The notes beneath the pieces were generated by a model. That model made no database searches, was not told the DNA's origin, and saw only the letters and a list, made by a program, of their open reading frames with translations. Position numbers and translations under genes: made by a program. A stretch of DNA of 64,000 nucleotides. Origin: Gossypium raimondii (lineage: Eukaryota; Streptophyta; Magnoliopsida; Malvales; Malvaceae). The stretch spans positions 873,001 through 937,000 of the forward strand of contig NC_068573.1 in the NCBI RefSeq assembly GCF_025698545.1, in the 5' to 3' direction. How positions within the stretch are numbered: position 1 is the first letter of the stretch; every line of letters starts with the position of its first letter. Positions 20,829 to 60,682 of the stretch are shown here, in pieces.

Positions 20829-20968
20829 AAGGAAACTAAAATTTACAAATTCATACGTAGCTAAGAACGGTAGTAACAAATGAGAAATAAGTTAGAAACT
20901 TTTAACACATTCTTGAACTTCGAACAAGGTTTAAAGGCATTACATTTTGGATAAGGAAATAATGTAGT

Positions 20969-23395
20969 TTAAACACAGACAGGGGCATGAAAGTCCCTGA
21001 TGGTTAGGTAGACTATGGAATGAGCTGCAACCGAGATGGGTGTGGAAGCATTGACAAGCTTTGGATCCATCGCCGGAATGTCGAAAATATCTGTCAGAAC
21101 CATTGGAACGTCATTCAGCAACACGATTTGACCTTGTATATTTCCACCTAATGCTGTCAGATGATACTCTTCCCTATTCAGGTGACTCCTAAATTCAAAT
21201 TTTGGCTTCGCAGCATCCGTGGGTCTCAAATTACGACGACGATGTTCGTAACTTGAAAGGGTTACGTCGAATGTGCTATCGTTCGACAAGTTGATAAAAA
21301 TTATAGAAATCCCGAGCTACAAATGGAAAAAAAATTATCCTAATAGTACTTGACAACAGTATAGGATTTGAAAAATGAAAAGTTAGCTTTATCAAATATT
21401 GCTTACCTTTTTCTTCGCACAATGAGCATATACACGCAAATTAGGGTTAGACTCTTGAGTTACGGCAAGTACAATACTTCCCATAAGCCGGTGCCATAGA
21501 AGCGCACTAGAAATGAAACAAGTTAAGAAGATGAAATGTCAGTGGCTATAGGGGAAAAAGCAAGGATAAGGCTAACACTGTTTTTGTGAAGATACTGACC
21601 CGTAGTAATCGGGATTGGGAATAAATGTTGTAGTGTCAAGTAAAGCATAATTTCCGCCGATGAGAGTTTGCCTGCAGAAAACCTTGTGATTGTAGGTTGA
21701 AGCCATTCCTAATTGATCAAAATACCTGTTTAAGGTGGAAATTTCAATCGCGTGTCGTATTATACACAGAAAAGGTTGAAGGTAGAGGAAAATGAGAGAG
21801 AAATATTACCAAAATCCATCAGCAAAGGTTGGAGACACATCTTTAGCACCGCCCTGAAGAGCTCCACCAGATTCAGAAACCCAAGCTCCCGACTGCGGTT
21901 TAAACTTGTTGACAATATTAAAAACACCCCTATAGGTTTGGGCAACTTGATTCAAGCACGAAGGATCTTGAATCTTGGTAATCAAGTTTAGATCATCACC
22001 TGCATAGGCATCAATCGAATTAAGAAATAGACCATACTAGTAATAAGTAAGCATCTAAAAGCTCTTCGGTAAACATTGGATCGACATATATCTGGATACC
22101 AGGTCCGAGATTGTAGATGTGGTGCGTAACCCCGTCAACAACTTCTTGTCCCAAAACTTCTAGGAAGGAATTAAACCATTTCTCGTCATAGAAGCCACTA
22201 GGGCCTAGAACCTTTGGTTGAGTTTTGGGATCTGGGTGTAATTCTTTCACCATATTCTTAAGTACTATTACGTCTTTTCCATATTGTTCAGCCTCAACCC
22301 TTGCGCCCATCCTAGCTCCGGAGAGTTGATTTCCTGGCAAGATAAATTGATTAAAGCACGACCGAAAAATAAAATGGAAAACGATCCCATGCGGATCTTT
22401 GGGAAAACAATTTTAGTTACCAAATTCGTAAGAATCAACTTTGTATCCCCTGGAAATAGTATACTTCATGAAATCCCTTGCATTTTGTGAATTCCAATCG
22501 CCAACCCAAAGACACTTTTCGCTTTGTGACTCGTTTCTTCCCAGAAGAGCATTCAACCCGAATGTAACCTTTACTATTCATAATGCCAGATTAATAAAGT
22601 CAATATTTTTTCTTTAGAAAAGAATGTGATGGTTTAATTCCTTTCCAGAATAGATTAATATACCCACCCAGTTTGATTGAAAAAGTTATTCAGTTCGTCC
22701 CATCTTTCCACGGGAAGGCACCCCTGGGAGAACCCAAATAAACTGCCTTCTTTTTTCATGAAATTGGGGCAATTCTTAACTTCTCCTACTCCGTCCACCA
22801 CTTGATCTTGCAACGACCCACCAACTTTGATTCTTAAAGAATTGAATGCTGAAAGTAATTTTCAAAATTAGTCTGAAATGATTCTTACCAACATTGAACC
22901 AAGTTTAGTCCCACTCGTTCTCACAACCAATCTTAAGAGATAGCTTTTAACAGTATTTGAATCGCATTATTTGCAACTTCTTTTCCGATTCTCAGATTAT
23001 GGACTACCTTGTACGAATTAATGGTAGACACATTTAGTTTCACACACGTAGAACTCACCTTTTATTGCATTTATTAGCACCTTCTTTTTCAAATCCTGCA
23101 AACAAATATAAAATAAAACAATAAGACTCAATGTTTATTTAAAATACATTTTTCACACACACACGCGCACAAAATAAGCAATTCATACCAAATTTAAAAG
23201 TCCAGCCTTTCCCCAAGGACATTGATTATAGTTGCATTTTTCAGTAGGCCACCAATCCAGTGTAGCACATACGAAGTTATCATCTATTTCAGCAACCGAT
23301 TTTGACCCTTGAATCACCACGTTCACATTTTGTGTAAAAGAAAGCGATATCCGAGAAACAATTATTACTAGGCCGAATATGCATTTCAAATCCAT
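20969..23395 (-). CDS. Heparanase/beta-glucuronidase-like GH79 protein, copy 2 (intact, 9 exons), acid/base Glu replaced by Gln
   Basis: Plant GH79 GUS/heparanase-like proteins are secreted beta-glucuronidases acting on cell-wall arabinogalactan proteins. Exons (minus): 23395-23189, 23095-23059, 22848-22664, 22568-22421, 22333-22100, 21999-21810, 21725-21600, 21506-21407, 21316-20969. All borders are GT-AG and the phases join to 1575 nt, 524 aa, close to the family's ~540. The start MDLKCIFGLVIIV gives a signal peptide, cut probably before NVNVVIQGS. Family blocks: CATLDWWPTEKC, RIKVGGSLQDQVVYGVG, VTFGLNALLGR, THHIYNLGPG, CRQTLIGGNYALL and LNREEYHLTA. Residues 193-195 read GNQ where active relatives have GNE (proton donor). 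The nucleophile is kept: Glu313 in WVSESGGA. The spacing of 118 residues equals that of human heparanase (225 and 343). Likely binds glycan but hydrolyses poorly; that part is inference. Confidence 0.9.
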
Positions 23396-23454
23396 TTTCA
23401 CAAAATCTAGATATTACGAAAGAGCAGGAAGAATTGATGTAATGGCATTTTAAT

Positions 23455-23470
23455 CGAGCATGTTTATATG
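23455..23470 (-). promoter_or_regulatory. TATA-like box of heparanase copy 2
   Basis: On the minus strand the sequence reads ACATATAAACATG, about 65-75 bp upstream of the ATG. The same box is kept at the equivalent place in copy 1 (about 18640-18655), copy 3 (about 28272-28287) and copy 4 (about 33084-33099). It also marks the left edge of the surviving fifth-unit fragment at 44390. The call rests on sequence and conservation only. Confidence 0.45.
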
Positions 23471-25641
23471 TTCACATTAAAAGGTTTGTTACAATTTGAT
23501 TTGAACAAAAAAAAGACTAGGAAATTTAATCGTGGTGAAAGCATCATTATCATTTAGTTTTAAAGCTACAGTTTTGCAGGTGCAACTTCTTCCGTTTTAG
23601 TTACGATCGGAATAATGATTCCAACTCATTATTTGGCACGAAAATCTAATTTTAGAACCTCTTTCATTTCATCTACCATGTAAGTTCCAAAATAAAGGCA
23701 TGTATTGCTGACTTAAGTTTTATGTCTTGCTCCCTAAAATATTAAGTGAAAAACAATGTGCATTTTGTTACAAGGAAGGCTGTAAGTTTAAAATTATTTT
23801 AACCAGTAATTATTGCAAGTTTACGGAGTTTGCAAAAATTATAACTTGCAATAATTTGACCTATCATTAATCATGAAATAATTGAGACACTTTGTAAATA
23901 GTAGCAACTATTTAGAAAATTTTACCTCCGTTAGTGTCTCTGCAAATTTGTAGAGGACGACCTATCTACTCTGCCTCCATAAGCCTAAATCTCTTACCCG
24001 AGTTTTCATAAACTCTCACCTATCGTAAAAGTACTAGTGTAGATAAATGAACTTTCATATCTAACTTTAATTTACTCGATATTTAAAAATAATATATACT
24101 TTTTATTAATTCTCTCGTGTACGATCTTAATAGAAAGTTTTTTTTCATTATTTTATGCAGAATAAACACCACAATCTTGTTATAAGAAAACGAATTGTTG
24201 GTTTTGAGAATTTAAGTCCAAGCCTAAAAAGAACACCTCTTAATGGTGTTGACTTGAATTACCAAGACTAAGCTCGGCTTATTTTCGTCTACTGTGTAAC
24301 AATATGTAAAAGAAAATCTTGTTAAAATCTAAAACCTTTCAGATAGTTTACTTTTCTTTTATGAAGCTTTTTTGCGCCTTTCTTAAACAAATTCAAAACC
24401 AATTGGGGACGAACATATGCAGCCCAAGTGCCCATATTTGAATTTTATATATAATAAAAGCCCAATAGGAATGCCACCTGCCTAGTGGACTCGGCCCTTG
24501 ACTGAGTTGCCCAAGTAATAAAGAATTCTTCGGCGAAATTCTTCGCAGTATACTTTTTCCGTAGAAATTCGTTTTCACGAGCACTCCAAACTACTCGCAG
24601 TTATTAATTTAATATATTTGAATGTTTATAAACTTTAGAATATAATATGAAACTGTTCGACTTTTTTACGTTTTATAAAATTTTGAAATTCCACCAACTG
24701 ACGATGAAATTATGTAGATATATTGTTCCAGAGTGGCATTTTCCTTGTCGTTCTTTGACCCGCTTCATTTTTCACAAGCGGGATGAGTTAACCCCCCGTA
24801 TTCAATCGTCATTGTTTCCTTGCGTTTGACTAGTACAAGGACTAAATTACCCCCGTTTAATTTTAAAGTGATTGAATTACTCGTGGTCTAATAGCTTATT
24901 ATCGCAAATAGTCAATTCCATCTTTAATACTCCTCTTTTGCTCACTTTCTAACAGTACATGGACTAAATCGGTCCTGACTCAATTGTACTAGGACCTCTT
25001 CGGACATTTTTCCCTACCTGTAAACTCCACTAACCAAGTGAAGTAACTTAGGAATAATCATAACAGTAAAACAAGAATAATAAAATAAAAAAAGTCATGA
25101 GAATGCTATGAACGAATATGCTAGTCGAACTAGGTCTCCAAGGCGCGACATGAAAGAGTAATTAAACACTACAAAACTAGAATGATCGGGTTGAAGTAGA
25201 ACAAATTCAATCTTCAACTAGGAAGGTTGAAGTAGAACGATAACGGACCCTGACAAAACATGGCATTTATTATCCTTTCTTTTCGCCAAACGTTGGAAAA
25301 GAATATTGTTTTCTTCCGGTAACGTTCGCTCTATTTTTATTTTTTTGGTACGTTGTCATATTAGGAAAACCATTGCTAAGGTGAACCAACGATTCTCGAT
25401 TCATTACATTGCATTTTATTGGTTCGTCTTTATCATTAAAATGTGTAGGGAATTGTCTTTAATTTTGAAATTTCATTTGCAACTTGTGGTTAAAGATCTA
25501 TGGCAAAGTAGTAGGTGAAAACAAATAGTGGAAACACGCCGAATCTAAAATAAGACCGACAACGTGTCGTTCATGCCCGGAGGATTACTTCGTCTATGCA
25601 ACATATAGTAGGAAATGAATTGAGATAAGGAAGAAATTTTG

Positions 25642-28600
25642 AACGAAACTAAAATTTACAAATTCATACGTAGCTAAGAACGGTAGTAACAAATGAGAAA
25701 TAAGTTAGAAACTTTTAACACATTCTTGAACTTCGAACAAGGTTTAAAGGCATTACATTTTGGATAAGGAAATAATGTAGTTTAAACACAGACAGGGGCA
25801 TGAAAGTCCCTGATGGTTACGTAGACTATGGAATGAGCTGCAACCGAGATGGGTGTGGAAGCATTGACAAGCTTTGGATCCATCGCCGGAATGTCGAATG
25901 TATCTGTCAGAACCATTGGAACGTCATTCAGCAACACGATTTGACCTTGTATATTTCCACCTAATGCTGTCAGATGATACTCTTCCCTATTCAGGTGACT
26001 CGTAAATTCAAAATTAGGCTTCGCAGCATCCGTGGGTCTCAAATTACGACGACGATGTTCGTAACGTGAAAGCGTTACGTCGAATGTGCTGTCGTTCGAC
26101 AAGTTGATAAAAATTATAGAAATCCCGGGCTACAAATGGAAAAAAAATTATCCTAATAATACTTGACAACAGTATAGAATTTGAAAAATGAAAAGTTAGC
26201 TTTATCAAATATTGCTTACCTTTTTCTTCGCACAATGAGCATATACACGCAAATTAGGGTTAGACTCTTGAGTTACGGCAAGTGCAATACTTCCTATAAT
26301 CCGGTGCCATAGAAGCGCACTAGAAATGAAACAAGGTAAGAAGATGAAATGTCAGTGGCTATAAGGGAAAAAAGCAAGGATAAGGCTAACACTGTTTTTG
26401 TGAAGATACTGACCCGTAGTAATCGGGATTGGGAATAAATGTTGTAGTGTCAAGTAAAGCATAATTTCCGCCGATGAGAGTTTGCCTGCAGAAAACCTTG
26501 TGATTGTAGGTTGAAGCCATTCCTAATTGATCAAAATACCTGTTTAAGGTGGAAATTTCAATCGCGTGTCGTATTATACACAGAAAAGGTTAGAGGTAGA
26601 GGAAAATGAGAGAGAAATATTACCAAAATCCATCAGCAAAGGTTGGAGACACATCTTTAGCACCGCCCTGAAGAGCTCCACCAGATTCAGAAACCCAAGC
26701 TCCCGACTGCGGTTTAAACTTGTTAACAATATTAAAAGCACCCCTATAGGTTTGGGCAACTTGATTCAAGTACGAAGGATCTTGAATCTTGGTAATCAAG
26801 TTTAGATCATCACCTGCATAGGCATCAATCGAATTAAGAAATAGACCATACTAGTAATAAGCAAACATCTAAAAGCTCTTCGGTAAACATTGGATCGAGA
26901 TATATTTGGATACCAGGTCCGAGATTGTAGATGTGGTGCGTAACCCCGTCAACAACTTCTTGTCCCGAAACTTTTAGGAAGGAATTAAACCATTTCTCGT
27001 CATAGAAGCCACTAGGGCCTAGAACCTTTGGTTGAGTTTTGGGATCTGGGTGTAATTCTTTCACCATATTCTTAAGTACTATTACGTCTTTTCCATATTG
27101 TTCAGCCTCAACCCATGCGCCCATCCCAGCTCCGGAGAGTTGATTTCCTGGCAAGATAAATTGATTAAAGCACGACCAAAAAATAAAATGGGAAACGATC
27201 CCATGCGGATCTTCGGGAAAACAATTTTAGTTACCAAATTCGTAAGAATCAACTTTGTATCCCCTGGAAATAGTATACTTCATCAAATTCCTTGCATTTT
27301 GTAAATTCCAATCGCCAACCCAAAGACCCTTTTCGCTTTGTGACTCGTTTCTTCCCAGAAGAGCATTCAACCCGAATATAACATTTACTCTTCATAATGC
27401 CAGATTAATAAAGTCAATATTTTTTCTTTAGAAAAGAATGTGATGGTCTAATTCCTTTCCAGAATAGATTAATATACCCACCCAGTTTGATTGAAATAGT
27501 TATTCAGTTCATCCCATCTTTCCACGGGAAGGCACCCTTGGGAGAACCCAAATAAACTGCCTTCTTTTTTCATGAAATTGGGGCAATTCTTAACTTCTCC
27601 TACTCCGTACACCACTTGATCTTGCAACGACCCCCCAACTTTGATTCTTAAAGAATTGAATGCTGAAAGTAATTTTAAAAATTAGTCTGAAATGATTCTT
27701 ACCAACATTGAACCAAGTTTAGTCCCACTCGTTCTCACAACCACTCTTAAGAGATAGCTTTTAACAGTATTTGAATCGTATTATTTGCAACTTCTTTTCC
27801 GATTCTCAGATTATGGACTACCTTGTACGAATTAAAGGTAGACACATTTAGTTTCACACACGTAGAACTCACCTTTTATTGCATTTATTAGCACCTTCCT
27901 TTTCAAATCCTGCAAACAAATATAAAATAAAACAATAAGACTCAATGTTTATTTAAAATGCATTTTTCACACACACGCACGCACAAAATAAGCAATTCAT
28001 ACCAAATTTAAAAGTCCAGCCTTTCCCCAAGGACATTGATTATAGTTGCATTTTTCAGTAGGCCACCAATCCAGTGTAGCACATACGAAGTTATCATCTG
28101 TTTCAGCAACCGATGTTGATCCTTGAATCACCACGTTCACATTTTGTGTAAAAGAAAGCGATATCCGAGAAACAATTATTACTAGGCTGAATATGCATTT
28201 CAAATCCATTTTCACAAAATCTAGATATTACGAAAGAGCAGGAAGAATTGATGTAATGGCATTTTAATCGAGCATGTTTATATGTACACATTAAAAGGTT
28301 CGTTACAATTTGATTTGAACAAAAAACAGATTAGGAAATTTAATCGTGGTGAAAGCATCATTATCATTTAGTTTTAAAGCTACAGTTTTGCAGGTGCAAC
28401 TTCTTCCGTTTTAGTTACGATCGGAATAATGATTCCAACTCATTATTTGGCACGAAAATCTGATTTTAAAACCTCTTTCGTTTCGTCTACCATGTAAGTT
28501 CCAAAATAAAGGCATGTATTACTGACTTAAGTTTTATGTCTTGTTCCCTAAAATATTAAGTGAAAAACAATGGTTATTTTGTTACAAGGAAGGCATTAAT

Positions 28601-30457
28601 TTTAAAATTATTTTAACTAGTAATTATTGCAAGTTTACGAAGTTTGCGAAAATTATAATTTGCAATAATTCGACCTATCATTAATCATGAAATAATTGAG
28701 ACACTTTGTAAATAGTAGCAACTATTTAGAAAATTTTACCTCCGTTAGTGTCTCTGCAAATTTGTAGAGGACGACCTATCTACTCTGCCTCTAAAAGCCT
28801 AAATCTCTTACACGAGTTTTCATAAACTCTTACCTATCGTAAAAGTACTAGTGTAGATAAATGAACTTTCATATCTAACTTTAATTTACTTGATATTTAA
28901 AAATAATATATACTTTTTATTAATTCTCTAGTGTATGGATCTTAATAGAAATTTTTTTTTCATTATTTTATGCAGAATAGACGCCACAATATTGTTATAA
29001 GAAAACAAATTGTTGGTTTTGAGAATTTAAGTCCAAGCCTACGAAGAACACCTCTTAATGGTGTTGACTTGAATTACCAAGACTAAGCACGGCTTATTTT
29101 CGTCTACTGTGTAACAATATGTAAAAGAAAATCCTGTTAAAATCTAAAACCTTTCAGATAGTTTACTTTTCTTTTATGAAGCTTTTTTGCGCCTTTCTTA
29201 AACAAATTCAAAACCAATTGGGGACGAACATATGCAGCCCAAGTGCCCATATTTGAATTTTATATATAATAAAAGCCCAATAGGAATACCACCTGCCTAG
29301 TGGACTCGGCCCTTGACTGAGTTGCCCAAGTAATAAAGAATTCTTCGGCGAAATTCTTCGCAGTATACTTTTTCCGTAGAAATTCGTTGTCACGAGCACT
29401 CCAAACTACTCGCAGTTATTAATTTAATATATTTGAATGTTTATAAACTTTAGAATATAATATGAAACTGTTCGACTTTTTTACGTTTTATAAAATTTTG
29501 AAATTCCACCAACTGACGATGAAATTATGTAGATATATTGTTCCAGAGTGGCATTTTCCTTGTCGTTCTTTGACCCGCTTCATTTTTCACAAGCGGGATG
29601 AGTTAACCCCCCGTATTCAATCGTCATTATTTCCTTGCGTTTGACTAGTACAAGGACTAAATTACCCCCGTTTAATTTTAAAGTGATTGAATTGCTCGTG
29701 GTCTAATAGCTTATTATCGCAAATAGTCAATTCCATCTTTAATACTCCTCTTTTGCTCACTTTCTAACAGTACATGGACTAAATCGGTCCTGACTCAATT
29801 GTACTAGGACCTCTTGGGACATTTTTCCCTACTTGTAAACTCCGCTAACCAAGTGAAGTAACATAGGAATAATCATAACAGTAAAACAAGAATAATAAAA
29901 TAAAAAAAGTCATGGGAATGCTATGAACGAATATGCTAGTCGAACTAGGTCTCCAAGGCGCGACATGAAAGAGTAATTAAACACTACAAAACTAGAATGA
30001 TCGGGTTGAAGTAGAACAAATTCAATCTTCAACTAGGAAGGTTGAAGTAGAACGATAACGGACCCTGACAAAACATGGCATTTATTATCCTTTCTTTTCG
30101 CCAAACGTTGGAACAGAATATTGTTTTCTTCCGGTAACGTTCGCTCTATTTTTATTTTTTTTGGTACGTTGTCATATTAGGAAAACCATTGCTAAGGTAA
30201 ACCAACGACTCTCGATTCATTACATTGCATTTTATTGGTTCGTCTTTATCATTAAAATGTGTAGGGAACTGTCTTTAATTTTGAAATTTCATTTGCAACT
30301 TGTGGTTAAAGATCTATGGCAAAGTAGTAGGTGAAAACAAATAGTGGAAACACGCCGAATCTAAAATAAGACCGACAACGTGTCATTCATGCCAGGAGTA
30401 TTACTTCGTCTATGCAACATATAGTAGGAAATGAATTGAGATAAGGAAGAAATTTTG
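25642..30457. repeat. Array unit 3 (4,816 bp)
   Basis: Third direct repeat, with gene copy 3 (25782-28209) and spacer 28210-30457. By eye it is closest to unit 4: they share the AT in place of AG at the exon 4 acceptor and CACCAAAAAATAAAATGG-like intron variants. This suggests that units 3 and 4 are the youngest duplication pair. Confidence 0.95.
25782..28209 (-). pseudogene. Heparanase-like GH79 copy 3, exons intact but exon 4 splice acceptor lost
   Basis: All nine exons align with copy 2 and are open (exon 1 28209-28003, exon 2 27909-27873, exon 3 27662-27478, last exon ending at the stop 25782). The acid/base position is Gln (27140-27142) and the nucleophile Glu is present. The base before exon 4 differs: copy 2 has AAAG then GTTACATTC, but here it is AAAT (acceptor AT at 27383-27384). 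The nearest upstream AG, 5 nt away, would put TAA directly after the last exon 3 codon and stop the protein at about 143 residues. Unless another acceptor is used, the gene cannot give a full protein. The call of pseudogene is therefore an inference; a cDNA could overturn it. Confidence 0.65.
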
Positions 30458-33400
30458 AACGAAACTAAAATTTACAAATTCATACGTAGCTAAGAACGGT
30501 AGTAACAAATGAGAAATAAGTTAGAAACTTTTAACACATTCTTGAACTTCGAACAAGGTTTAAAGGCATTACATTTTGGATAAGGAAATAATGTAGTTTA
30601 ACCACAGACAGGGGCATGAAAGTCCCTGATGGTTACGTAGACTATGGAATGAGCTGCAACCGAGATGGGTGTGGAAGCATTGACAAGCTTTGGATCCATC
30701 GCCGGAATGTCGAATGTATCTGTCAGAACCATTGGAACGTCATTCAGCAACACGATTTGACCTTGTATATTTCCACCTAATGCTGTCAGATGATACTCTT
30801 CCCTATTCAGGTGACTCGTAAATTCAAAATTAGGCTTCGCAGCATCCGTGGGTCTCAAATTACGACGACGATGTTCGTAACGTGAAAGGGTTACGTCGAA
30901 TGTGCTATCGTTCGACAAGTTGATGAAAATGATAGAAATCCCGGGCTACAAATGGAAAAAAAATTATCCTAATAGTACTTGACAACAGTATAGAATTTGA
31001 AAAATGAAAAGTTAGCTTTATCAAATATTGCTTACCTTTTTCTTCGCACAATGAGCATATACACGCAAATTAGGGTTAGACTCTTGAGTTACGGCAAGTA
31101 CAATACTTCCCATAAGCCGGTGCCATAGAAGCGCACTAGAAATGAAACAAGTTAAGAAGATGAAATGTCAGTGGCTATAGGGGAAAAAGCAAGGATAAGG
31201 CTAACACTGTTTTTGTGAAGATACTGACCCGTAGTAATCGGGATTGGGAATAAATGTTGTAGTGTCAAGTAAAGCATAATTTCCGCCAATGAGAGTTTGC
31301 CTGCAGAAAACCTTGTGATTGTAGGTGGAAGCTATTCCTAATTGATCAAAATACCTGTTTAAGGTGGAAATTTCAATGCGTGTCATATTATACACAGAAA
31401 AGGTTAGAGGTAGAGGAAAATGAGAGAGAAATATTACCAAAATCCATCAGCAAAGGTTGGAGACACATCTTTAGCACCGCCCTGAAGAGCTCCACCAGAT
31501 TCAGAAACCCAAGCTCCCGACTGCGGTTTAAACTTGTTGACAACATTAAAAACACCCCTATAGGTTTGGGCAACTTGATTCAAGTACGAAGGATCTTGAA
31601 TCTTGGTAATCAAGTTTAGATCATCACCTGCATAGGCATCAATCGAATTAAGAAATAGACCATACTAGTAATAAGCAAGCATCTAAAAGCTCTTCGGTAA
31701 ACATTGGATCGAGATATATTTGGATACCAGGTCCGAGATTGTAGATGTGGTGCGTAACCCCGTCAACAACTTCTTGTCCCGAAACTTCTAGGAAGGAATT
31801 AAACCATTTCTCGTCATAGAAGCCACTAGGGCCTAGAACCTTTGGTTGAGTTTTGGGATATGGGTGTAATTCTTTCACCATATTCTTAAGTACTATTACG
31901 TCTTTTCCATATTGTTCAGCCTCAACCCTTGCGCCCATCCCAGCTCCGGAGAGTTGATTTCCTGGCAAGATAAATTGATTAAAGCACGACCAAAAAATAA
32001 AATGGAAAACGATCCCATGCGGATCTTCAGGAAAACAATTTTAGTTACCAAATTCGTAAGAATCAACTTTGTATCCCCTGGAAATAGTATACTTCATCAA
32101 ATCCCTTGCATTTTGTGAATTCCAATCGCCAACCCAAAGACCCTTTTCGTTTTGTGACTCGTTTCTTCCCAGAAGAGCATTCAACCCGAATGTAACATTT
32201 ACTCTTCATAATGCCAGATTAATAAAGTCAATATTTTTTCTTTAGAAAAGAATGTGATGGTTTAATTCCTTTCCAGAATAGATTAATATACCCACCCAGT
32301 TTGATTGAAATAGTTATTCAGTTCGTCCCATCTTTCCACGGGAAGGCACCCTTGGGAGAACCCAAATAAACTGCCTTCTTTTTTCATGAAATTGGGGCAA
32401 TTCTTAACTTCTCCTACTCCGTACACCACTTGATCTTGCAACGACCCACCAACTTTGATTCTTAAAGAATTGAATGCTGAAAGTAATTTTAAAAATTAGT
32501 CTGAAATGATTCTTACCAACATTGAACCAAGTTTAGTCCCACTCGTTCTCACAACCACTCTTAAGAGATAGCTTTTAACAGTATTTGAATCGCATTATTT
32601 GCAACTTCTTTTCCGATTCTCAGATTATGGACTACCTTGTACGAATTAATGGTAGACACATTTAGTTTCACACACGTAGAACTCACCTTTTATTGCATTT
32701 ATTAGCACCTTCTTTTTCAAATCCTGCAAACAAATATAAAATAAAACAATAAGACTCAATGTTTATTTAAAATGCATTTTTCACACACACGCACACACAA
32801 AATAAGCAATTCATACCAAATTTAAAAGTCCAGCCTTTCCCTAAGGACATTGATTATAGTTGCATTTTTCATGAGGGCCACCAATCCGATTGTAGCACAT
32901 CTGAAGTTATCATCTGTTTGACAACCGATGTTGATCCTTGAATCACCACGTTCACATTTTGTGTAAAAAAAGCGATATCAGAAACAATTATTACTAGGCT
33001 GAATATGCATTTCAAATCCATTTTCACAAAATCTAGATATTACGAAAGAGCAGGAAGAATTGATGTAATGGCATTTTAATCGAGCATGTTTATATGTACA
33101 CATTAAAGGTTCGTTACAATTTGATTTGAACAAAAAACAGATTAGGAAATTTAATCGTGGTGAAAGCATCATTATCATTTAGTTTTAAAGCTACAGTTTT
33201 GCAGGTGCAACTTCTTCCATTTTAGTTATGATCGGAATAATGATTCCAACTCATTATTTGGCACGAAAATCTGATTTTAAAACCTCTTTCGTTTCGTCTA
33301 CCATGTAAGTTCCAAAATAAAGGCATGTATTACTGACTTAAGTTTTATGTCTTGTTCCCTAAAATATTAAGTGAAAAACAATGGTTATTTTGTTACAAGG

Positions 33401-33885
33401 AAGGCAGTAATTTTAAAATTATTTTAACCAGTAATTATTGCAAGTTTACGAAGTTTGCGAAAATTATAATTTGCAATAATTCGACCTATCATTAATCATG
33501 AAATAATTGAGACATTGTAAATAGTAGCAACTATTTAGAAAATTTTACCTCCGTTAGTGTCTCTGCAAATTTGTAGAGGACGACCTATCTACTCTGCCTC
33601 TAAAAGCCTAAATCTCTTATACGAGCTTTCATAAACTCTTACCTATCGTAAAAGTACTAGTGTAGATAAATGAACTTTCATATCTAACTTTAATTTACTC
33701 GATATTTAAAAATAATATATACTTTTTATTAATTCCCTAGAGTATGGATCTTAATAGAATTTTTTTCATTATTTTATGCGAATAGGCATACAATATTGTT
33801 CTAAGAAAACGAATTGTTGGTTTTGAGAATTTAAGTCCAAGCCTACGAAGAACACCTCTTAATGGTGTTGACTTGAATTACCAAG
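30458..33885. repeat. Array unit 4, truncated on the right
   Basis: Fourth direct repeat. It runs through gene copy 4 and about 860 bp of the upstream spacer, then homology stops at about 33885 inside the motif GAATTACCAAGA. Beyond that lies the AT-rich block. The last kilobase has more small indels against unit 3 than the rest of the unit. Confidence 0.93.
30598..33021 (-). pseudogene. Heparanase-like GH79 copy 4, disrupted exon 1 and lost exon 4 acceptor
   Basis: Exons 2-9 are open and match copy 2, with Gln at the acid/base site (31954-31956) and Glu in WVSESGGA. Exon 1 (ATG at 33019-33021) carries several one- to two-base indels between about 32869 and 32990. The frame shifts after the STSV residues and a TGA follows near the WWP motif. 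The exon 4 acceptor is AT at 32197-32198, the same change as in copy 3. The terminal residue is Gly instead of Val through one base change before the stop. The cluster of indels lies close to the junction with the AT-rich block, so part of it could be consensus error. Confidence 0.8.
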
Positions 33886-36800
33886 ATTGAATTATGTAGA
33901 ATTAATTAATATAAACGATCTTCAGAATCAGATAGTACCTATGAACGAATTTGATCACTTGCTAACTTACTTACAAATAATACTTATCACAACTTACTTT
34001 CGGATAATCTGAATTACTATAATCAACACTTCTGATCTTAGATATCGAACTATAGTACCTTATACTTTTGATAACTGACCATTAAAGTAACATTTTAAAA
34101 ATTCGTTTAAAATCATAAGCTTAATCAATGAACTATCTTCCAATATTATTGATTCTAATTTCATAATCGAATTTTCAAACGATCTTGATAACTTAGAATT
34201 TTTCAAATAGAATTGAATTGACAGCTTTCCATCCTTTTCACAATAACACTTGTTAACCATTACGTGCACTTTATCATTATCCACTTATACTTAATATGTA
34301 AATTTAATAAATATGAATCTTGAACACTTTCTTCAATTAATCTCAAAATAATAGTTTTAATGATATAAAATATCAACTTTTCATCAACTGATATAACATT
34401 ACCAATTAAGTCACCTATGTCCCAACATTATTAATTGCTCTACATCTTGAAACATTATGTAATAGTACATTTATACAAATAATCTGATACATCTTAAAGT
34501 TACACTGCAATTAGTTAAACATATTCACAGATCATCATTTATACTCAATAAACATTTTGCAATCATTTAGACACATGATTAAATTATATGAATGCATATT
34601 TAGTCAATATTTCAAATCTATTAAATTTCAAATTTACAGTAAACTCTGAATGTGAATAATTTGATTCAAATTTAAATTATACTTTTCATAAGTGTCACTA
34701 TTACAATTAAATTAAATTACATGTATCATACACATTTTATCTGTAAACGATTTGTTAAACATTTGTTACATTGAATATATTACAATATGCATATTCGATT
34801 TACAAGAATATTATCAGATATATTAAGCAAATTAAGTTAATATTTTGAACGGATTTTTCAATTACTCTAACGATTTGAATAAATGATAATTGCTTTTCAA
34901 TAATAACGATCAATTTATTTAGATATACAATATTAGATATTTATCATTTAAATTAAATTTTAAAGTGAATTGCAACTTCTATTATCTAATATAACAATTT
35001 TACATTTCGAAACTTTATCAATACATTTTTAAATCATTTCAAATTACATTATTAATTCATTAGTTAACAATTAGTTAAGTATCTAATTTAATTTCCATAA
35101 CATATTAAACTTTAAACTTTAATATATCTATTTAAGCAAATTTTATGAATTATGTTCTAATACTTGCTAATTCTATAAAATATCTGAAATTTATTATTAT
35201 AGTAATTTAATTCGAACATCCTCTATAGTACTAAATTATCTAAATAAACTAATTGACATTATATCTATGCATTTTAATAAATTTAAGTAATTTATAATAT
35301 TGAGACAATTATATACTAATTAGAATGGTATTTAAAAACTATATAACTTTCAAATTTAAATGCTAAGTTGAAATTTTTCTACTATTACCTATAAATATTA
35401 TCTAGTTAATAATGCTAATAATTTTGTAAGTTTTAATTCAATTTCCATTGATAATTAATAGTACGATGATTAACTTATCTATTATCTTTATTTGAAATGT
35501 ATTACATAATTAATATTGTATAATTGACTTCATAATTGATAAATCAGCATTACTTTTAAATATCATGTATGAATTATCATACTAATAGTTCAGTATTTAA
35601 CAATTTCAATTAAAGTAAATTAATATAACACTGATTGATAATTACAGATTTAATTATACAATATTACATATTGAAAATTAGTAATGCTATAATCTATAAT
35701 CTTAGTCATAATTAGAATGATATCTTTTATAAATTAATAATCTATTTACTATACATTGTAAATTTGATATCATCATGTTATTACTAAAATAGATTTAATG
35801 CTTAGTATGAATTCATAATCATATGAAATTGCTTATAAGTACTATTAATATCAATATAGCAATGCACAATTTTGACTTTTAGAAATCATACTATCTTTGA
35901 ATGTAATTAAGTATCTAGTAGAAGATAATTAATTTTATTCTCTAATTATTTGACATTGAATATAGTAATGGATAAGTATACATCAAATGTAAGCCAATGG
36001 TAATGTCACAGAGCATTGTACTGCTTGATTGCAAGTTATTTTACAAGCTTAAACTTGTCAATCAGTGATTCATTATATTAGAATTATGATAATAGAATGC
36101 TGATATTATCTAAAATTTATGAATAATTCATCTTCATAATTTGTGCATTAATAGTAACATTTATCGTTAAATGTGAACATTGAATATTCAGACTGAATTC
36201 AAATATATCTAGCAATTTACAGATAATTATCTCGATTATTAATATCTGAATATTAGTAATGAATCTTGAAATTCTAAGTACTCCGATAAATCTAATGTAG
36301 TCATAATAACAATGACATTTTTAAACTTTTGAACATGTAATTAAATGGTAAAATATAAACATTATAGTAAACTTAAATTCGTTATACTTCTTGAATTGAA
36401 TATGTTCACTATGATGATAGATTTGAATCTACAATGATAACATTGACCGTCAGAACATTTATATAAATTTGCAGAATTTAACGTAAATTTAAACTCATTT
36501 TGCTTGAATATAGAAAATACTGTGTAACAGTTGAATGATCATGAGTCAATGTACATATAAAATGCGATTGAAGTTAATAAATAATTAAGGTTAGATACGA
36601 ATACAGATCTATCTTACGCGAATGATCATCAGCAGTATGTCTATGCAAAATTCATGACTGAAATTTAGACTGGAAATATTACACAATACAGTTGGAATTA
36701 TGTCAAGTAAGGATGATTAAATTAATCGAATTATAATTTGAATCGTATTAGATTTGAATTATCGAACTATTCAAGTGTGACTAATGAATCTAATTAAGTA

Positions 36801-39800
36801 CAGTGACGTCATGAACTTATTCAGTATGAACTTAAGTAAACTCGATAATGAAAATTCACTAATGACAGATAATTATCAAATTATAAATTATTGCAAAGAC
36901 GCAAAATAGATATAAGTTTTATGAAAATTGTTACAATGTTTATTGACAAGTTTATACAGAAATGGTAAGAAATTTGATATAGTACAATATTCAATACATT
37001 GATCGACATGATGTATCTAATGTGAAGATAATGCTTGATGGAATCAGTTATATGCAAAGTATTTGAATCGATATTGAAGAATGATGATGATAATAGTGAA
37101 ATCTGGATTGAAGTATGAACATCAGTTGCTAACATGTAATTATAACTGGTTGGAAAATTGATGATTGTCAGAAGTAATTAATGTAGTAAGTAAGAATTTA
37201 CTGATAATCAGTCTAGCATAATCAATAATCGAATAACATGATCATAGAATGAAAACATATGTTGAGATAAGAATATGATATGTCCTACAGATTACCAATA
37301 GGTTGTAACGTAACAATTGAAATATATCATGATATCAATGCAAGATTGAAACTTAATAATTTAGTACAATACTTGGATATTTAAGATAGTAGTAAATTAA
37401 GCTCAATTCAAACTTTAGAATACATACTTCAAATTAGAACTTACATATTCAGCGTAGTATCTAGAACTTTGTAATGTGAGAATTTCAATAAATCTATGTA
37501 AGTAACATCTAGCTAGAATTCACTCATATTATGCAATCATACCGAATAGACTTAATGAAATACCCATGTCAAATTTAGAAATCAAATCATTTTAACTATC
37601 GTCTACAATATATATTTAAACTTATGTATCTTTTGTCCGAATGACAATACTTCCATATTAGACCAAGCATTTAAATAATTCATATTGATAATGAATTCTT
37701 ATAACTAATATTTAAAGAATTAAGATTCTAGTTATTCTATTCAACTTAATAACTAGTTCAGATAAAGTGATGTTCAATTAGCAATTACATTACCAACATT
37801 AGTCAAACTTCATTATGCTGATTGACACTTCTATAAACTTGAGTTGAATTAATTCCTAACAAAATTGACGTTAGATTGTTGCAAACATTATTAAATATTA
37901 TGTCAGCAATTGAATCCAACAATTCCCAATCGATACTCACGATTGACTTGAACATATTACAACTCCATTAAGTTTGCAATGTATTAATGACTTAGATTCA
38001 TCTAGAATGTTAATTCCAATGTTATAACACACAGCTGTATACAGTTTAATCAACTAAATTATACCAAATAGACTACATTTTAACTCGTTAAATTCGATAA
38101 TAATTCAATTCTGAATAGTCATCTGAATGATAATATTTCATGCAACCATTTGCAATCATTAATTCAATTAGACACAATGACCATTATCACTATAAGATCA
38201 ATTTTAAGTCACCTGATACTAATATTCTACAATTAATTTTCTCACTTTCACATCGACCATCATTGTCTAAAGTTAATTGAAAGATAATGAATTTCACATT
38301 GATTAATTTACATAGTACGTTAATATACTGAATTTACACACATTTAACAACATCTGAATTAAGAATTTTATCAACTTTTAAGATTTGATTTATATTGTTC
38401 ATAAATTATAAATGATGTACTGAATTTTAGCATTAACTTATATTACATTTCAAGTTTACATATTGACATTAACTCAAAATTAAGATGAAATATTATATTC
38501 GTATTAACTAATTTCGACACTTCTTTTAGTAAATGCAATTTACCATCGATAATATTAATTACAACTTTGCACACAAATTGAATTGATCTATCATTATTCA
38601 GAATACTCATTATTAAACGTTATTATGAATTAGATTAGTACGAATATTTAAAATGTGCATATTACATTGCCAAGTAATTATTATGAAATTGAAGTTCATT
38701 AATGCAATATTATAACATATATTTTAAATTACTTAATTAGTTTAAAATTTACATTTTTAATAGAAATTCTTAGAATCATTAATACTTAAAGCACTTTAAA
38801 TTACTACTGATTTGAGAAATACCATTTTACCGTAATTGAGCAATATAAACTATATGTACTTTATAGCATAACTTTTTACTAGTAATATTACAAATAATCT
38901 TCTATTTAAAATCATCACAGTAATTTAATATTACGAACATTTTGATTTATTTACAATAACTACAAATTTGACTATATATGATATTTGAATTCAATGTATA
39001 ATTAATTTCCATGACCGATTATGTAAATCCTCATTTAGAACTCTAAAATTCTCGAAATTTATGTTCTTCAGAAACTTAAATTGTTTAAAATCTAAGATTC
39101 GATAACTATAATATACTTAAGTTTGTCTTAATAAAGATTAATAAATGATTAGTACATTGTTTTAACATTAGTTGATTCTAGTTTGCTATTACATAATGCT
39201 AATGTTATTAATCTTTCATTGTTGAACGACTTAGAATTCAGTAATAATTCAAATTTCGTATTTTTACGATAATCATTACATTCTCATAATAATGCTTAAT
39301 TAATAGCAATTAAATGATTATGATAGATTCATCATATTTACGTAAATCTTACATTGATTATAATATTGCAAATTTCGTAATAAATATGAGTATACTTGTA
39401 GATATTATCTGAATTCTGCATCTTTTACAATTGTTCCAGATTTGCAATTTCTAGAGTCGTCTTCTTCCAGTATAATTCATCAATGTTTATGATGTACTCG
39501 TAATATAATTTTTACTGTTAAATCATTTAAATTGTATTGTTACTCTGTATATAAATATCTAATTATTTTATTTTGAATATCTTATAAGTACTGTTCTATA
39601 GCAAACAATATAATGTATAATGATTGTATTCTGTTTACTAAGTCATGAAACTCATACCAGACTTGAATACTAGAAATCAACATAATTCTAGAAAATAGAA
39701 TAAAAGTCAAAGTAATCTAATGCAATATAGCATCTTCTAAAGTTGAAGAATGTTAGATCTAATATCCAAAATCTTAAACATTGACTAATGTGAATAGAAA

Positions 39801-42800
39801 TAATTTATTGAATTACATAGAACATAAGGACTAGCATAAGTAGATGCATTATTCAGTACAATTTCATTCATAAGTCTGAAGATTACTTGTAAATTTTGAG
39901 ACGAATCATTTTGATAACTCATCATTTATTTATTAACATAAGTAAATTATGAATTTGATAAGACATAACATTAATTTACATTACTATTGTCAAATGCTGT
40001 ATGAAATATTAAATTAGTTAATGAATTAATTGCAAAGTTACTTACTAAATTTGAATGACTATATTAAATAGAGATGCAATGATTTGTAACATATTGAAAT
40101 ATAATACCGATGAATCTAAATACTAAGTCATGAAGTATCATTACTTGAATTGACTAGACAATTAGAGATTAGATCAAATTTACAATCTAATTATTGTACA
40201 TAATGATAAAAGTGCTAATCATGTATAACATAATTTAAAAATTTGAATTATCACATTGACTTGATCAAGTTTGAACATTGGAATTTAATCGAATTGATGA
40301 AGTTTACTAGTATGCTATATCCATCGTACAGGAAGTAATTCTATCGATCTAAATGTAAGATGATTTGCAAAGTGTAACAGCTAGATCTACAGATGATATC
40401 TTCGATAGTTAGACCTTTAAGTACATGACAAGATCATCATTACACATATGATTTAACTGAATTGTTTTAATTTGCATATAAACTTTAAGATCATAATGCA
40501 ATTAGATAGAATTGGTTAATCTGAAATCAAGTTTAACGATCTTATGAACAGTGATTAAAAGAACTATGTCGAACTTTTACTATCATAACCATTGAAATAA
40601 TGACATATTTATGTAAATTAAACTAATTCAAAATTTGAAACTATATTTAAAATAGGAACATTCACAACTTCATATAGCTAAGTTCACATATTCAAAATTC
40701 ACCATTATGGTTAAGGTTACATTGACAAATGACAGTGCAATTGATTAATAAATCGACAGAAGATTGAACATAAACGTTACTAATACACATGTTAGCAATT
40801 AATCATGATTCAATAACTAATTATGAAGTCAGATATTGAACGACAATTGTTTAAAAGTTTTCGAAGCTGATCTCTAGATAATTGCAACTAGCACATTTGA
40901 TTGTAAATGATTCAAATATAATTAGTTGAAGTATGATTACAATTGTCTTCTTCGTAACAATACAGGTCAGATTGTGAAGATATTGAAAGATCTTTAGATA
41001 TTCGTACATAGCATTGAACTTGAACTAGTTCATCATTTGAAATCTCAAATTCGTTATAACATTTTAGTACATGTAAATTCCGAATGGCTAAGCGAACTTA
41101 TTCTAAGCTATAATAGATACAAGCTATCAATCAGATTAAACATTAGTAATTCACTAATCTAAATGGCTTAAATCTCGTGAATATATCGTACTTACAATCT
41201 ATTTGAATCTCAAATGTACATTTAACTAGTATTCACTTATAACTTTTACGATATATTAGCATTAATTCGAATCATTCATATAACAATTTGAAACAATTTG
41301 ACTTAATTGACATAATTGACATTCAAAATGTCCAAGATTGTAAAACATTTCACTTTCAAACCTTGGAGTAACCATGACATCGACTATTGACTAATTATAA
41401 TCGCTATCAATTATTCCTCATCATATAACCATGATCACAGAATATTAAGAATTATGCAAAATAAATGATTAACAGACATTAATAAGTTATGTAACATTCC
41501 ATCTAATGATCATTCGAAACAATTTATTCGACTTATCGAAAACTGATTCCTCATTATATCCGTTATCAACATTCTTAGTTTAAAAGATCCACTTATTGCA
41601 ACCAATTTTGAACTTCTTAACCATGTCATTCAATAAAGAGATATTAATCATAATATACATGACTTCATGAAGCCGAATTTAAGTAGCATATTTTCAGAAT
41701 AAGTGTATTTTCAATACTATTGAATTTGAATAATTTACTAACGTTGAATTTGAACACTTTAATTAGTGCAACTTAGACGATTACTGTATATGATCCAAAT
41801 TTGAACATCTTTTTTGAAATAGCTGAATTCTAATCTTTGTCCAATACTGTTTAATTCATGTTATGTACAATTAATTGAAAGAAACTTAAATTCTAAGATT
41901 ATCAAATTCTTCAATACAATTTTAGTCTTAACAATAATTGCAAAATTTTGCTTTATAGAATAGTTTCAATGCAATTATGTAACTATTTAACTTACTACTT
42001 AGCTATTGAATACATATGTAAAGGCTAAATAACTTATTCAGATAAAATCTTTACCATTTACATTGTATACATATTAAAATTGATTAGAATATCAATAATA
42101 AAAATTTAACAAATTAATCTTATAAATTTACGACTAAGTAGCATATCAAAGACGCTAAATTATCGAATTAAACATTCTTCAAAGCTTGATTTAATCATTA
42201 AGATTCATATTTAGTTAGAACAAATTAGATTATCACTAATGCTATAATTAATCCATGTTCAATCATTGATAAGATAATTTTGTTATACTGATACAATTTG
42301 AACTATTGATGGTGAATTATGCATTCAAGTCACAATTTCTACATATTACAAATATACCCTTGTAATTCAATTGCAATCTAGGCATTTTACATTACATATT
42401 ACATTCTATAGAGTTCAATGTTGATAGTTAACAATTTAGAATAAGTGAAGCACATAGTATTATTTACGAAGTTTTCGTCAGTGCATAACTTACTATCAAT
42501 ACATAATTGAACAAATTAATGACAATATGAAATTCAGACTTGTTTACATAATCAATGAATTAAATCGAACATATTACATACTTAATTTATAGTTCATATT
42601 ACTTTCAGTAAATATGTTCAATTATTACAAGCGTGATTAATTTAATTTTACGAATGTAATTATTGATTTATAGTTGATTATATGAATAAAAGTTTTCACT
42701 ATTATTTTGAATAACTTAACATTATGTATAAATTACGTGAATCTTAAATTGAAAATACCGGTAATAGTCTATTGAGAGATCACTCATTACTTGTTTCCTA

Positions 42801-44389
42801 AAGAAATTATACGAATTTATAAATTATCTAATAAAGTACTAGATTAGATAAATGAACTATAGAACTTTAACATTGAATACTAAAAATAAATCATTATAAG
42901 ATACAGAGTAGCATACTATGAGAATTTGATCTTTATGAGACATAGTCAATATGTTCACTGGTAAAAGAAATTTGAAATTCATAGTACCTTTAAGATAATA
43001 TTACAGTTTATATCAATTACCAGATTATGAGTTATTTCATGTCTTTAAAACTATAGTAAGCAAATATGTTAAAAATTAACATCGCATATTTACTAAATCT
43101 TGACATTTATGACTTTTAAATTGCAAGTAACAATGGAATTACATATATGCACTTATTTGAACATATTAACAATATATACAATGTTCAATAGATATCTTGG
43201 ACGCTGAATTCAGTATAATTTTACGAATTAAACTTATTAAATTTATGCAAATCATGTTTAATCACTATGAGAATCTAGATACAGAAATCGCAGATAATTA
43301 GAATATTTATAAACTTTAGAATGTAGAATAAACATGTGATTTTGAACATTATTATTAGAAATTAAGATAACATATCAATATTGTACTAACTTGGCAATGC
43401 ATTCGATTAGTGTTATCAAGCTCAGTTTGAAGACGCTGATTAATTTATTCCTAGATCATGTGACTAAAACATTTAACCTATATTCGTTAAATTATGAATT
43501 CAATTAGTTAATGATTCAATGTATCCAATTATTGTCCAAATTAGATAATCTACCAAAGTTCATCTCATTAACGTATTCATCTAAAGTTACTTTAAATTGG
43601 TCATCTAAGTTGAAACTATAATTTCTACAAATTTGCTCAATGTAGCAATTGAATTACATACATTACGACTATGATAATAGACTTATATGAATGTCTAATA
43701 TCAATTCTGATTATTCATCTGTCAATGCAAACTTGAAGAATAGAAATCAACTGAATGATACTTGATAGAACAAATCTCAAATACATGTTAGTTAATTAAG
43801 ACATTACGTACAGTCATACATCATAATCATTTGTTCAAAAATATTGACATATAAGTTTTCAAATTCTCATGTTATTTAATGAAATTTATAAATTTCAATA
43901 TTAATAGAAGAATTAAAGCTTAATATACATCTCTATTAATTTGCATACTTCATGTCACGCATATAAATCAAATGTCACAAGTTACTGAAATTAGCACTTC
44001 AAGGTTCTTGACACTTGATGTCAAGCATATGAAATTAGAACATATTTGAACATCTGATCAAATAGGAAACTATACAGTTAACTGTCTATACATCTATAGA
44101 ACCAATTGAATTGAGCATAAAGATTTTAAGAATTAATAATTTAAAATTCTACACTTAAACGAATAGAACAACATTACAACTAGACTATTAATTACCATTT
44201 ACTTATGAACTAGACAATTGTAAGTTTCACAAGTTTGAATATGATTGCTACATACTAGATACCAATTGGAACATACTATTGATTCCCCAAGTACGATTGA
44301 TTAAGAAATTGAAGACACAAGATCTTAATTCACACTTTCAGATATACATCTATTAGACACTTTGACTCTTGATAATTACAATCTTCTTA
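33886..44389. other. 10.5-kb AT-rich gene-free block interrupting the heparanase array
   Basis: No gene, RNA gene, LTR, terminal inverted repeat, satellite period or transposon protein could be recognised on either strand. The G+C content is about 10-30% line by line. Only two frames above 60 codons occur (34060-34284 and 36881-37135, both minus); neither has a family signature and both fit chance at this composition. Homopolymer runs of seven or more were not seen, whereas they are common elsewhere in the window. CG dinucleotides appear about as often as composition predicts (about 12 in 36541-37140). The left border is the break in unit 4 at 33885. The right border is the start of fifth-unit homology at 44390. 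Possible origins: an unknown element, foreign DNA, filler DNA from break repair, or an assembly fault. Confidence 0.8.
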
Positions 44390-45362
44390 TATGTACACAT
44401 TAAAAGGTTCGTTACAATTTGATTTGAACAAAAAACAGATTAGGAAATTTAATCGTGGTGAAAGCATCATTATCATTTAGTTTTAAAGCTACAGTTTTGC
44501 AGGTGCAACTTCTTCCGTTTTAGTTACGATCGGAATAATGATTCCAACTCATTATTTGGCACGAAAATCTGATTTTAAAACCTCTTTCGTTTCGTCTACC
44601 ATGTAAGTTCCAAAATAAAGGCATGTATTACTGACTTAAGTTTTATGTCTTGTTCCCTAAAATATTAAGTGAAAAACAATGGTTATTTTGTTACAAGGAA
44701 GGCAGTAATTTTAAAATTATTTTAACCAGTAATTATTGCAAGTTTACGAAGTTTGCGAAAATTATAATTTGCAATAATTCGACCTATCATTAATCATGAA
44801 ATAATTGAGACACTTTGTAAATAGTAGCAACTATTTAGAAAATTTTACCTCCGTTAGTGTCTCTGCAAATTTGTAGAGGACGACCTATCTACTCTGCCTC
44901 TAAAAGCCTAAATCTCTTACACGAGTTTTCATAAACTCTTACCTATCGTAAAAGTACTAGTGTAGATAAATGAACTTTCATATCTAACTTTAATTTACTC
45001 GATATTTAAAAATAATATATACTTTTTATTAATTCTCTAGTGTATGGATCTTAATAGAAAGTTTTTTTTTCATTATTTTATGCAGAATAGACGCCACAAT
45101 CTTGTTATAAGAAAACGAATTGTTGGTTTTGAGAATTTCAGTCCAGGCCTACAAAGAACACCTCTTAATGGTGTTGACTTGAATTACCAAGACTAAGCAC
45201 GGCTTATTTTCGTCTACTGTGTAACAATATGTAAAAGAAAATCCTTTTAAAATCTAAAACCTCTCAGATAGTTTACTTTTCTTTTATGAAGCTTTTTTGT
45301 GCCTTTCTTAAACAAATTCAAAACCAATTGGGGACGAACATATGCAGCCCAAGTGCCCATAT
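44390..45362. repeat. Remnant of array unit 5: gene-upstream spacer only
   Basis: Near-identical to 28278-29250 of unit 3 (and to 33089-33885 of unit 4 as far as that goes). It starts at the TATA-like box just upstream of where the fifth gene's exon 1 should be, so the whole coding part of a fifth copy is missing. It ends after GCCCAAGTGCCCATATTT and jumps into intron sequence. Confidence 0.93.
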
Positions 45363-45556
45363 TTTAATTAGTCCGAAATGATTCTTCCTAAATTTTGATC
45401 AAATTTAGTCTCACGCATTTTCACAAACACTCTTAAGAGATTGCTTTTTACAATATTCGAATCGTAATATTTGCAACTTCTTTTTCAATTCACAAATTTT
45501 AAACTACCTTATATGAATTAATGATAGACACATTTAACATTACATAAGATGTCACC
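45363..45556 (-). pseudogene. Diverged fragment of heparanase-like intron 2 (sixth copy relic)
   Basis: Matches the intron between exons 2 and 3 of the array genes (27683-27873 in copy 3), including AATTAGTC(C/T)GAAATGATTC and ACTCTTAAGAGAT, in the same orientation. Similarity looks clearly lower than the near-identity among units 1-4, so it stems from an older duplicate. No exon sequence survives. Confidence 0.8.
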
Positions 45557-53011: not shown

Positions 53012-54643
53012 GGTTAGAATCATAGCTGATATTGATCCTTCAAAAGATTTTTGGTGTGTTTGTAAGGACAATTAAAGGAGCATTGATAGAAGCTGAACTT
53101 AAGGTTTCTGCATTGAATAAATACTATGACTAGAATAGGAAAGAGGTAAAGATTGGATCTGTACCTGATTTGGCCTACAAAGGATGGATAGTTCATTTCC
53201 TTACTAGTTACAACTTTTAATAATTCAAGCAACTCGTATGTATCTTTGCTTGAGAAACAAAACAATGTAACTAATTAATGCCAATTCCGTTCATTTCTCT
53301 ATGGTATGTAGGTTAAAATTACCAGCAACATGATAGAAATTTTGTGTGTAGCCTTTGGGAACTCATGTTTCATAATTTAGATTTGGACTTTTAAAATAGT
53401 GTGAATTTGAAATCTTCAACATATTTTTGGATTTGACAAATCTATGTTTTGTTTTTCGTCAATAATAAATAACTAGATTATAAAATAAACCACTTTAAAG
53501 TCCAGGATAAATATGTCTTAGAATCTTTGTATATTTGCCTTTGGAATTTAAATTGTATGTTAAATTGTTAATGTCGGTAACATTCTTTTGTTATTACCAT
53601 TATTTTGTTTTGTTTTATTACATGTTTTGAGTTTTAAAATGTCAAACCATAGTAAACTTAATTAAATAATGTTAATGGTGAAAATAATTAGAATTTAAAA
53701 AATAATGTTAATATATATAGCTCAATAATGTTACGTTCAAAATCGAACGTTGCTTTGTTAAAATAAAGGCCAAAGTTAATATACCTAACTAATATTGGGT
53801 TCGTGGGGACGGATATTGTGCTCAATGGGAAATCGCTGGTCCTTCTTGAATGGCTATCACAAATCCCTTTAATTCTTTCATTTCTTTTTATGGTTAAGTT
53901 TTTGTTTTGGTTATTTAACTAAAAAAATTATATTTTAGTCATTAAACTATTTGAAAGTTTATTTAAATTATTAGGATAATTTTTTTGAAAGAAAAAAAGT
54001 GTCGTTAAAGAGCTTCAAGCTATGATTCGACGATCGATACGATAGATCAGTACCCATCGATGGGTAGAAGAACATACCTTAGATCCAAGTCAATTTGATG
54101 GTTAGTGTTAGAGATCGAAGATAAAAATTGTTTGAACTTTAGTTCACAAATTTGTAACATCCAAAATTGTTTAATAAAAAAAAATTGAACTGTATAATAG
54201 AAAGGGAAAGAGAGCTTTCGATCGTTGCAAGCAGTGCGAATAGAGAAAGACATATAGTATCGATTTTGACAACCTAGTGACTTAAATAAAAACTTTTTAA
54301 TAGTTACACGACCAAATTGTATAGTTTACCCTTTTTTTTATTTCAAGAGTGTCTTTCCTCAGGCAGTATCTTATTTTTCCAAAGTAGTCTTAAAAAAATT
54401 AGCATGTGTCTTTTTTCAAATATTTATTTTTAATATTTTATTATATCCCTACAAGGAACTTGCCAACCCCCTACATTATGGAATCTAAAAACTTCGTGTA
54501 CCAAATAATTTCCCAAAAAAATAAAATAGCAATTATGTTTTTATTTAGCATTATTTCTTCTTTTTTTCTTAAAAATATTATATAAGTTGAAAATGTTATA
54601 AAGTATTAAAAAATAATACCAACTTCAGTTTTTCATAGTAAAA
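53012..54643. other. 3' flank of AspAT and intergenic DNA
   Basis: The AspAT 3' UTR should occupy the first few hundred bases; no clear polyadenylation signal could be chosen. The part 53880-54320 is bordered by mirrored TTA-rich and AAGT-rich ends, suggesting another fold-back element around a more GC-balanced core with ATCGAT motifs. No gene was found. Confidence 0.45.
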
Positions 54644-60654: not shown

Positions 60655-60682
60655 AAAATCTGTCCACGCTCACCGCACCAAT
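60655..60682 (-). other. Primer-binding-site-like segment
   Basis: Directly inside the right LTR the minus strand reads ATTGGTGCGGTGAGCGTGG. TGG two to three bases after the LTR end is the usual start of a tRNA-primed site, and it confirms that the right LTR is the 5' LTR. The tRNA could not be identified with confidence. Confidence 0.5.

Follow-up and report, generated by a model that had tools for sequence, protein, structure and literature searches.

What is the 10.5-kb stretch of AT-rich sequence that lies inside a tandem gene array of Gossypium raimondii, and how did it come to be there? The window, by which we mean the whole 64,000 nucleotides analysed (NC_068573.1, positions 873,001 to 937,000), had been read from its letters alone, and the original prediction picked out positions 33886-44389 as a run-poor block without coding that might represent an undescribed large element, foreign DNA, break-repair filler or an assembly fault. 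Similarity to the array ends at 33886 and resumes at 44387, at the unit position equal to 33090. The block itself is borne out by our analysis, with its edges corrected to 33887 and 44386; it is located on C9, approximately 0.9 Mb from the contig start.

The compositional oddities described for the block proved accurate. Between 33886 and 44389, A+T content is 76% (about 75% had been claimed), and there are no homopolymer runs of seven or more, one of at least six and 17 of at least five; approximately 15 runs of at least seven would be expected from block composition (zero-order model, 30 simulations; 15.2 by formula), in line with the dozen or more that had been anticipated. The predicted scarcity of GG and CC was likewise seen (observed/expected 0.32 and 0.51), while CG stands close to composition at 0.79, compared with 0.72 in the rest of the window. 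The absence of coding also held: the longest stop-to-stop frame in the block is 98 aa, and neither of the two block frames scanned contains a Pfam domain. No tandem period was found, with TRF reporting short, weak rows and no array, and the tandem and inverted repeats inside the block are short or low-identity pairs only. No RNA in the block passed the Rfam gathering score, and ARAGORN (bacterial code) found no tRNA in the window.

Given a further property, the anomaly is stronger than was originally stated. Identity between neighbouring bases falls below chance at every lag from 1 to 5 (z = -8.9, -14.6, -8.4, -5.4 and -3.2). The genomic controls were 20 stretches of 10 kb, sampled at fixed positions across ten of this genome's chromosomes. 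Averaged over lags 1-5, z was positive in all 20 (minimum +1.4), with individual lags falling as low as -1.0 (lag 2) and -3.2 (lag 3); the observed/expected ratio for runs of at least five was at least 0.98 in every control against 0.16 in the block, and that for GG was at least 1.04 throughout. All 15 block windows of 700 bp had a combined lag z of -3.1 or lower, and a single one of 280 control windows got as far as -3 (-3.0). In a scan of the window by 700-bp pieces, the highest combined z among 28 block pieces was -3.4, and none of 149 outside fell below -2.3. The repeat-avoiding state is even along the whole block, and begins and ends at its edges. Direct repeats are, if anything, scarce, with nine of 13 nt against about 21 under an order-3 Markov model and one of 14 nt against about 7; in two natural stretches of the window, put through this comparison as well, 13-14-base direct repeats were in large excess. 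Five-mer frequencies in the block are strand-symmetric (r = 0.93). The block is real as a statistical object, and its pattern is absent from all 20 genomic controls.

The surrounding DNA is a tandem array of GH79 (heparanase-like) genes at 16031..33886 on the minus strand, with a period of approximately 4.81 kb, defined by self-BLASTN and by Glyco_hydro_79n. Units start at 16031, 20829, 25642 and 30458, the fourth being incomplete, and are 93.7-96.7% identical over aligned spans in self-BLASTN at offsets of one, two and three units. The Pfam scan, which among the array frames of this kind covered the 130-aa one at 31648-32040, assigned it to Glyco_hydro_79n (E = 1.1e-29), and equally long frames at 17203, 22020 and 26834 hold the corresponding position in units 1-3. 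The start of unit 1 (16031-16900) carries many private substitutions relative to the rest of that unit, the first 400-column bin holding 21 and the second 47. Beyond the block, clean array sequence occupies 44387..45369, where the array ends; this piece is 98.7% identical to 28278-29259. Directly past it, a 171-bp piece at 45366-45537 is 82% like 32494-32664 and out of unit order, and is perhaps a remnant of an older unit.

In plain BLASTN (E 1e-5, word 11) the block has zero matches in the rest of the window, and its kinship with the array escaped the first reading since the garbling leaves the copy barely recognizable. A first hint of a match came from sensitive local alignment to the array unit, on the forward strand only. 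When seven 1.5-kb chunks of the block were aligned locally to a doubled unit with generic scores, forward z values were 5.9, 1.8, 1.0, 1.7, -0.4, 12.6 and 8.3, against -0.7 to 0.4 on the reverse strand and -0.8 to 2.7 for other targets in the window. The last two chunks run into each other across the unit boundary, and a continuous alignment joins block positions 41456-44241 to unit positions 2882-6304. A substitution matrix was learned from this alignment, which is part of the block itself; the generic-score chunk test was made without it. With the learned matrix, 14 of 29 overlapping 700-bp block windows reached a forward z of at least 4 and 15 stayed below it, and the reverse maximum was 3.5. 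Thirteen of the 14 lie on one line with a slope of 1.223 unit bases per block base and a residual sd of 57; the fourteenth (offset 8050, z = 4.7) lands away from this line and had been excluded before fitting. The first block window (z = 3.6), which stood outside the fit, falls 80 bases from the line.

When the whole block was aligned to the tandem array, the score was 1428. Eight surrogates reached 439-539, the reverse complement of the block 565 and its reversed sequence 518; four natural queries gave 324-495, while alignment of the block to either strand of two other targets gave 425-486. As one to five tandem copies of the unit were offered, the score rose through 683, 1011 and 1315 to 1430 and 1430, and this climb until four copies indicates that the block tracks successive units of the array. 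Alignment-free measures agree: of the 24 12-mers shared with the array, 9 gather in a single diagonal bin of 120 bp, against a maximum of 2 of 11 for the reverse complement, and a free slope scan with 9-mers had its forward maximum of 51 near slope 1.2, compared with 37 and 38 in two controls. The best-preserved part is 42287..43336 (+), where the 700-bp windows at offsets 8400 and 8750 reach z = 24.0 and 25.4, and where the alignment path runs through exact shared words at 42845 (14 nt) and 42833 (10 nt). Taken as sole template, unit 1 scored 1351, unit 2 scored 1418 and unit 3/4 scored 1428, units 2 and 3/4 being inseparable. The block (33887-44386, +) is therefore unmistakably a faint, collinear copy of the neighbouring GH79 unit in the same orientation as the array, and hence neither foreign DNA nor a new element. 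It corresponds to about 13.0 kb of array (2.70 units) compressed to approximately 0.82 of that length.

This homology bears directly on the suggestion of a genuine insertion, in which foreign DNA or an undescribed large element would have entered the array and created a 0.8-kb target duplication. The suggestion draws on the direct repeats of 0.8 kb on either side of the block (33090..33886 and 44387-45192, 97.1% identical). It also draws on distant-mode BLASTN (E<=0.1), which found no match in phages (33887-41886) or plasmids (33887-41886 and 38000-44386), and on a genome search with 36000-37500, a 1.5-kb piece of the block, whose single match was its own locus (C9:909000-910500, 100% identity). 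The block is nevertheless homologous to the host array, and its flanking repeats are plain tandem-unit sequence, each from a different unit. To say that the block has no terminal repeats, as had been done, is accordingly misleading, since the flanking direct repeat exists and both of its copies are parts of the tandem unit. A reading of these flanks as LTRs or as a target duplication was rejected, as each full unit carries the flank sequence. The left copy, which is unit sequence upstream of the gene, differs from the right at 23 alignment columns and agrees with at least one other unit in 5 of them, showing that the two come from different units; the idea that 33090-33886 is merely an error copy of 44387-45192 was rejected on the same count. 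A genuine insertion is, in our judgement, extremely unlikely.

How much of the array survives in the block is easily overestimated. The fitted alignment keeps 60% of array bases and is over-fitted, and an identity estimate of about 60% was discarded, because sequence corrupted at the fitted rates aligns back at a score of about 4700, not 1428. In a simulation grid of 12 settings with two runs each, the observed score was matched near 42-45% of array bases kept, at roughly 35-40% deletions, 16-21% insertions and 25-35% substitutions. These simulations suggest survival of only about 42% of the bases of the array. Over the 3.4 kb of unit that aligns best, 36% of C, 36% of G, 15% of A and 18% of T were deleted, and this preferential loss of G and C turns a unit of 33-35% GC into a block of 24% GC, accounting for its high A+T. 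With exon limits set by eye, the match fraction was 0.585 in exons (n = 3880) and 0.603 elsewhere (n = 9140). Exons being no better kept than the rest, no selection is visible.

Could the block be real DNA all the same? If this tandem array had an ancient arm that had diverged strongly, collinear tandem homology of the kind that we observe would result. Such an arm would, however, be expected to preserve exons better than their surroundings, and it would have neighbours of intermediate divergence, whereas the adjoining units are 94-97% alike with nothing in between. The shrinkage is also steady over 13 kb (sd 57) rather than concentrated in few large gaps, although the method favours short gaps, and short-range autocorrelation, negative in the block, is positive in natural DNA of this genome. 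We therefore give an ancient arm scarcely any credence. Templated copying of the array with an extreme error rate, such as break repair with repeated switching, might in principle have laid down 2.7 scrambled, repeat-avoiding units as genuine DNA; we regard this as exceedingly improbable. Among the origins initially proposed, the collinear, one-orientation copy of the GH79 unit thus speaks for an assembly fault and against an undescribed element, foreign DNA and break-repair filler.

At the right joint, the last 300 bases of the block correspond to unit positions 1328-1756 while clean array restarts at about 4010, out of register with the block end, so that approximately 2.25 kb of repeat is skipped. 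The right flank copy is nearest to unit 3 (98.7%), and its only private change over 807 alignment columns is a single substitution; the left copy carries 15 private changes. On the left, decay starts before the block, in a degraded tail of unit 4 (32872..33886). Relative to units 1-3, the 1015 bp of 32872-33886 hold 28 private events (17 substitutions and 11 indels), compared with 12 (11 substitutions and one indel) in the 2414 bp of 30458-32871, a rise in density with p = 1.3e-7. The share of indels in the tail is raised against units 1-3 (178 substitutions, 8 indels; p = 1.0e-6), with p = 0.067 against the earlier part of unit 4. Exon 1 (32872-33018) is open throughout in unit 3, while in unit 4 indels destroy the frame and stops are met. 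These clustered small changes are likely to be sequence errors rather than the marks of a pseudogene, and a pseudogene call for unit 4 is unwarranted on present evidence.

Steady shrinkage over 13 kb, small indels that ignore coding, misregister at the right joint and a decaying left flank together point to a poor read or a failed consensus. Derivation in repeat order, errors blind to coding and a break of register at the right joint, all present here, mark an assembly artefact; a sequence unrelated to its insertion site, as expected of a transposable element or foreign insert, is not what we find. We therefore conclude that the block is very probably an assembly artefact: the array goes on in the plant, and the assembly bridges it with garbled sequence. 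The source may have been a long read of low quality that was left uncorrected, or a consensus built from reads stacked wrongly, and such sequence would have closed the gap between array contigs in a form that polishing could not repair.

The current in a nanopore is set by a stretch of about 5 bases of DNA. A nanopore-type read would be the likeliest source, because deletions dominate in the block, homopolymers and short repeats are under-called and self-avoidance reaches about 5 bases. As reported in PMC8486125, nanopore errors are mostly deletions, then mismatches, then insertions, and about half of them fall in homopolymers or short repeats. The block fits this order (deletions > substitutions > insertions) and lacks homopolymers; repeated bases are not preferentially deleted, being lost no more often along the fitted alignment (lag 1: 0.208 vs 0.267). 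The estimated damage (~35% deletions, 16% insertions and 30% substitutions) is several-fold above the read error of 6-8% given in PMC8486125, and the strand-symmetric word use counts against pore noise, which need not be symmetric. When the array was corrupted at random and blind to context, lag-1 z was +3.5 to +5.6 with 44-53 runs of at least six, so that the avoidance was not reproduced. On the side of assembly practice, PMC8848313 describes gap closers as often inserting sequence unlike the true one, and PMC7476103 describes raw segments inserted in gap closing as needing correction.

The same peculiarities could come from software, in the form of a learned gap-filling model or of a simulated or test insert that mimicked the array but shunned repeats. 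Deep learning has been applied to gap filling in plant genomes (PMC12834303), and uniform repeat avoidance at lags 1-5, strand symmetry and long repeats no more frequent than under a Markov model would suit such a product. The block, however, is part of the assembly itself, judging from the perfect match of its 1.5-kb piece, and the left flank decays ahead of it, as in poor read sequence. We consider a software product improbable and retain the assembly artefact as our explanation.

The alignment path crosses two complete gene-length stretches of the unit, and two complete extra GH79 copies, with parts of others, are probably hidden in the block; their exact count is uncertain, given the duplicated and skipped register at the joints. 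For this array, gene counts, promoters and repeat annotation in the assembly are wrong, and the assembly does not give the true copy number. A genome search with the unit identified 38 places among the matches listed, those other than the window's own at 66-86% identity, and the only listed match above 90% was the window's own 44387-45369 piece; the listing lacks the window's own four units and is therefore unusable for a copy count or for the absence of further units. On the same chromosome, further GH79-like or unit-like sequences of 70-85% identity apparently form clusters at C9:3669217-3798437 and C9:5632142-5642874.

Elsewhere in the window, two matches to MIR7502, a cotton family, exceed the Rfam gathering score in opposite orientations at 5029-5173 (+) and 7141-7282 (-); they are the only Rfam matches in the window, and both lie inside a 69% inverted repeat (4926-5258 / 7403-7051). 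Three related sequences of 0.35-0.4 kb (54641-55006, 55334-55676 and 60680-61090; one inverted, 84%) surround reverse transcriptase and RNase H remains at 56119-57477.

Our verdict is that the block is ordinary in kind and not a biological feature, a truly odd sequence that now has an explanation. A false lead is removed and a hidden assembly error exposed. More generally, sub-chance autocorrelation at lags 1-5 could serve as a cheap, alignment-free flag for similar garbled blocks in other assemblies, which would otherwise pass as novel AT-rich DNA.

Finally, two known systems provide a frame for this locus. Like the tandem GH79 gene clusters of plants, the array under the block is GH79 (Glyco_hydro_79n), but the block differs from them in holding no usable gene, its reading frames having been destroyed. 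Set beside gap closure with error-prone long reads, the damage in the block is far heavier than in ordinary raw reads, and its homopolymers and short repeats are almost erased. In common with such closures, the block lies inside a tandem array between clean copies, is rich in deletions, has a degraded flank and meets the array out of register at its right joint.
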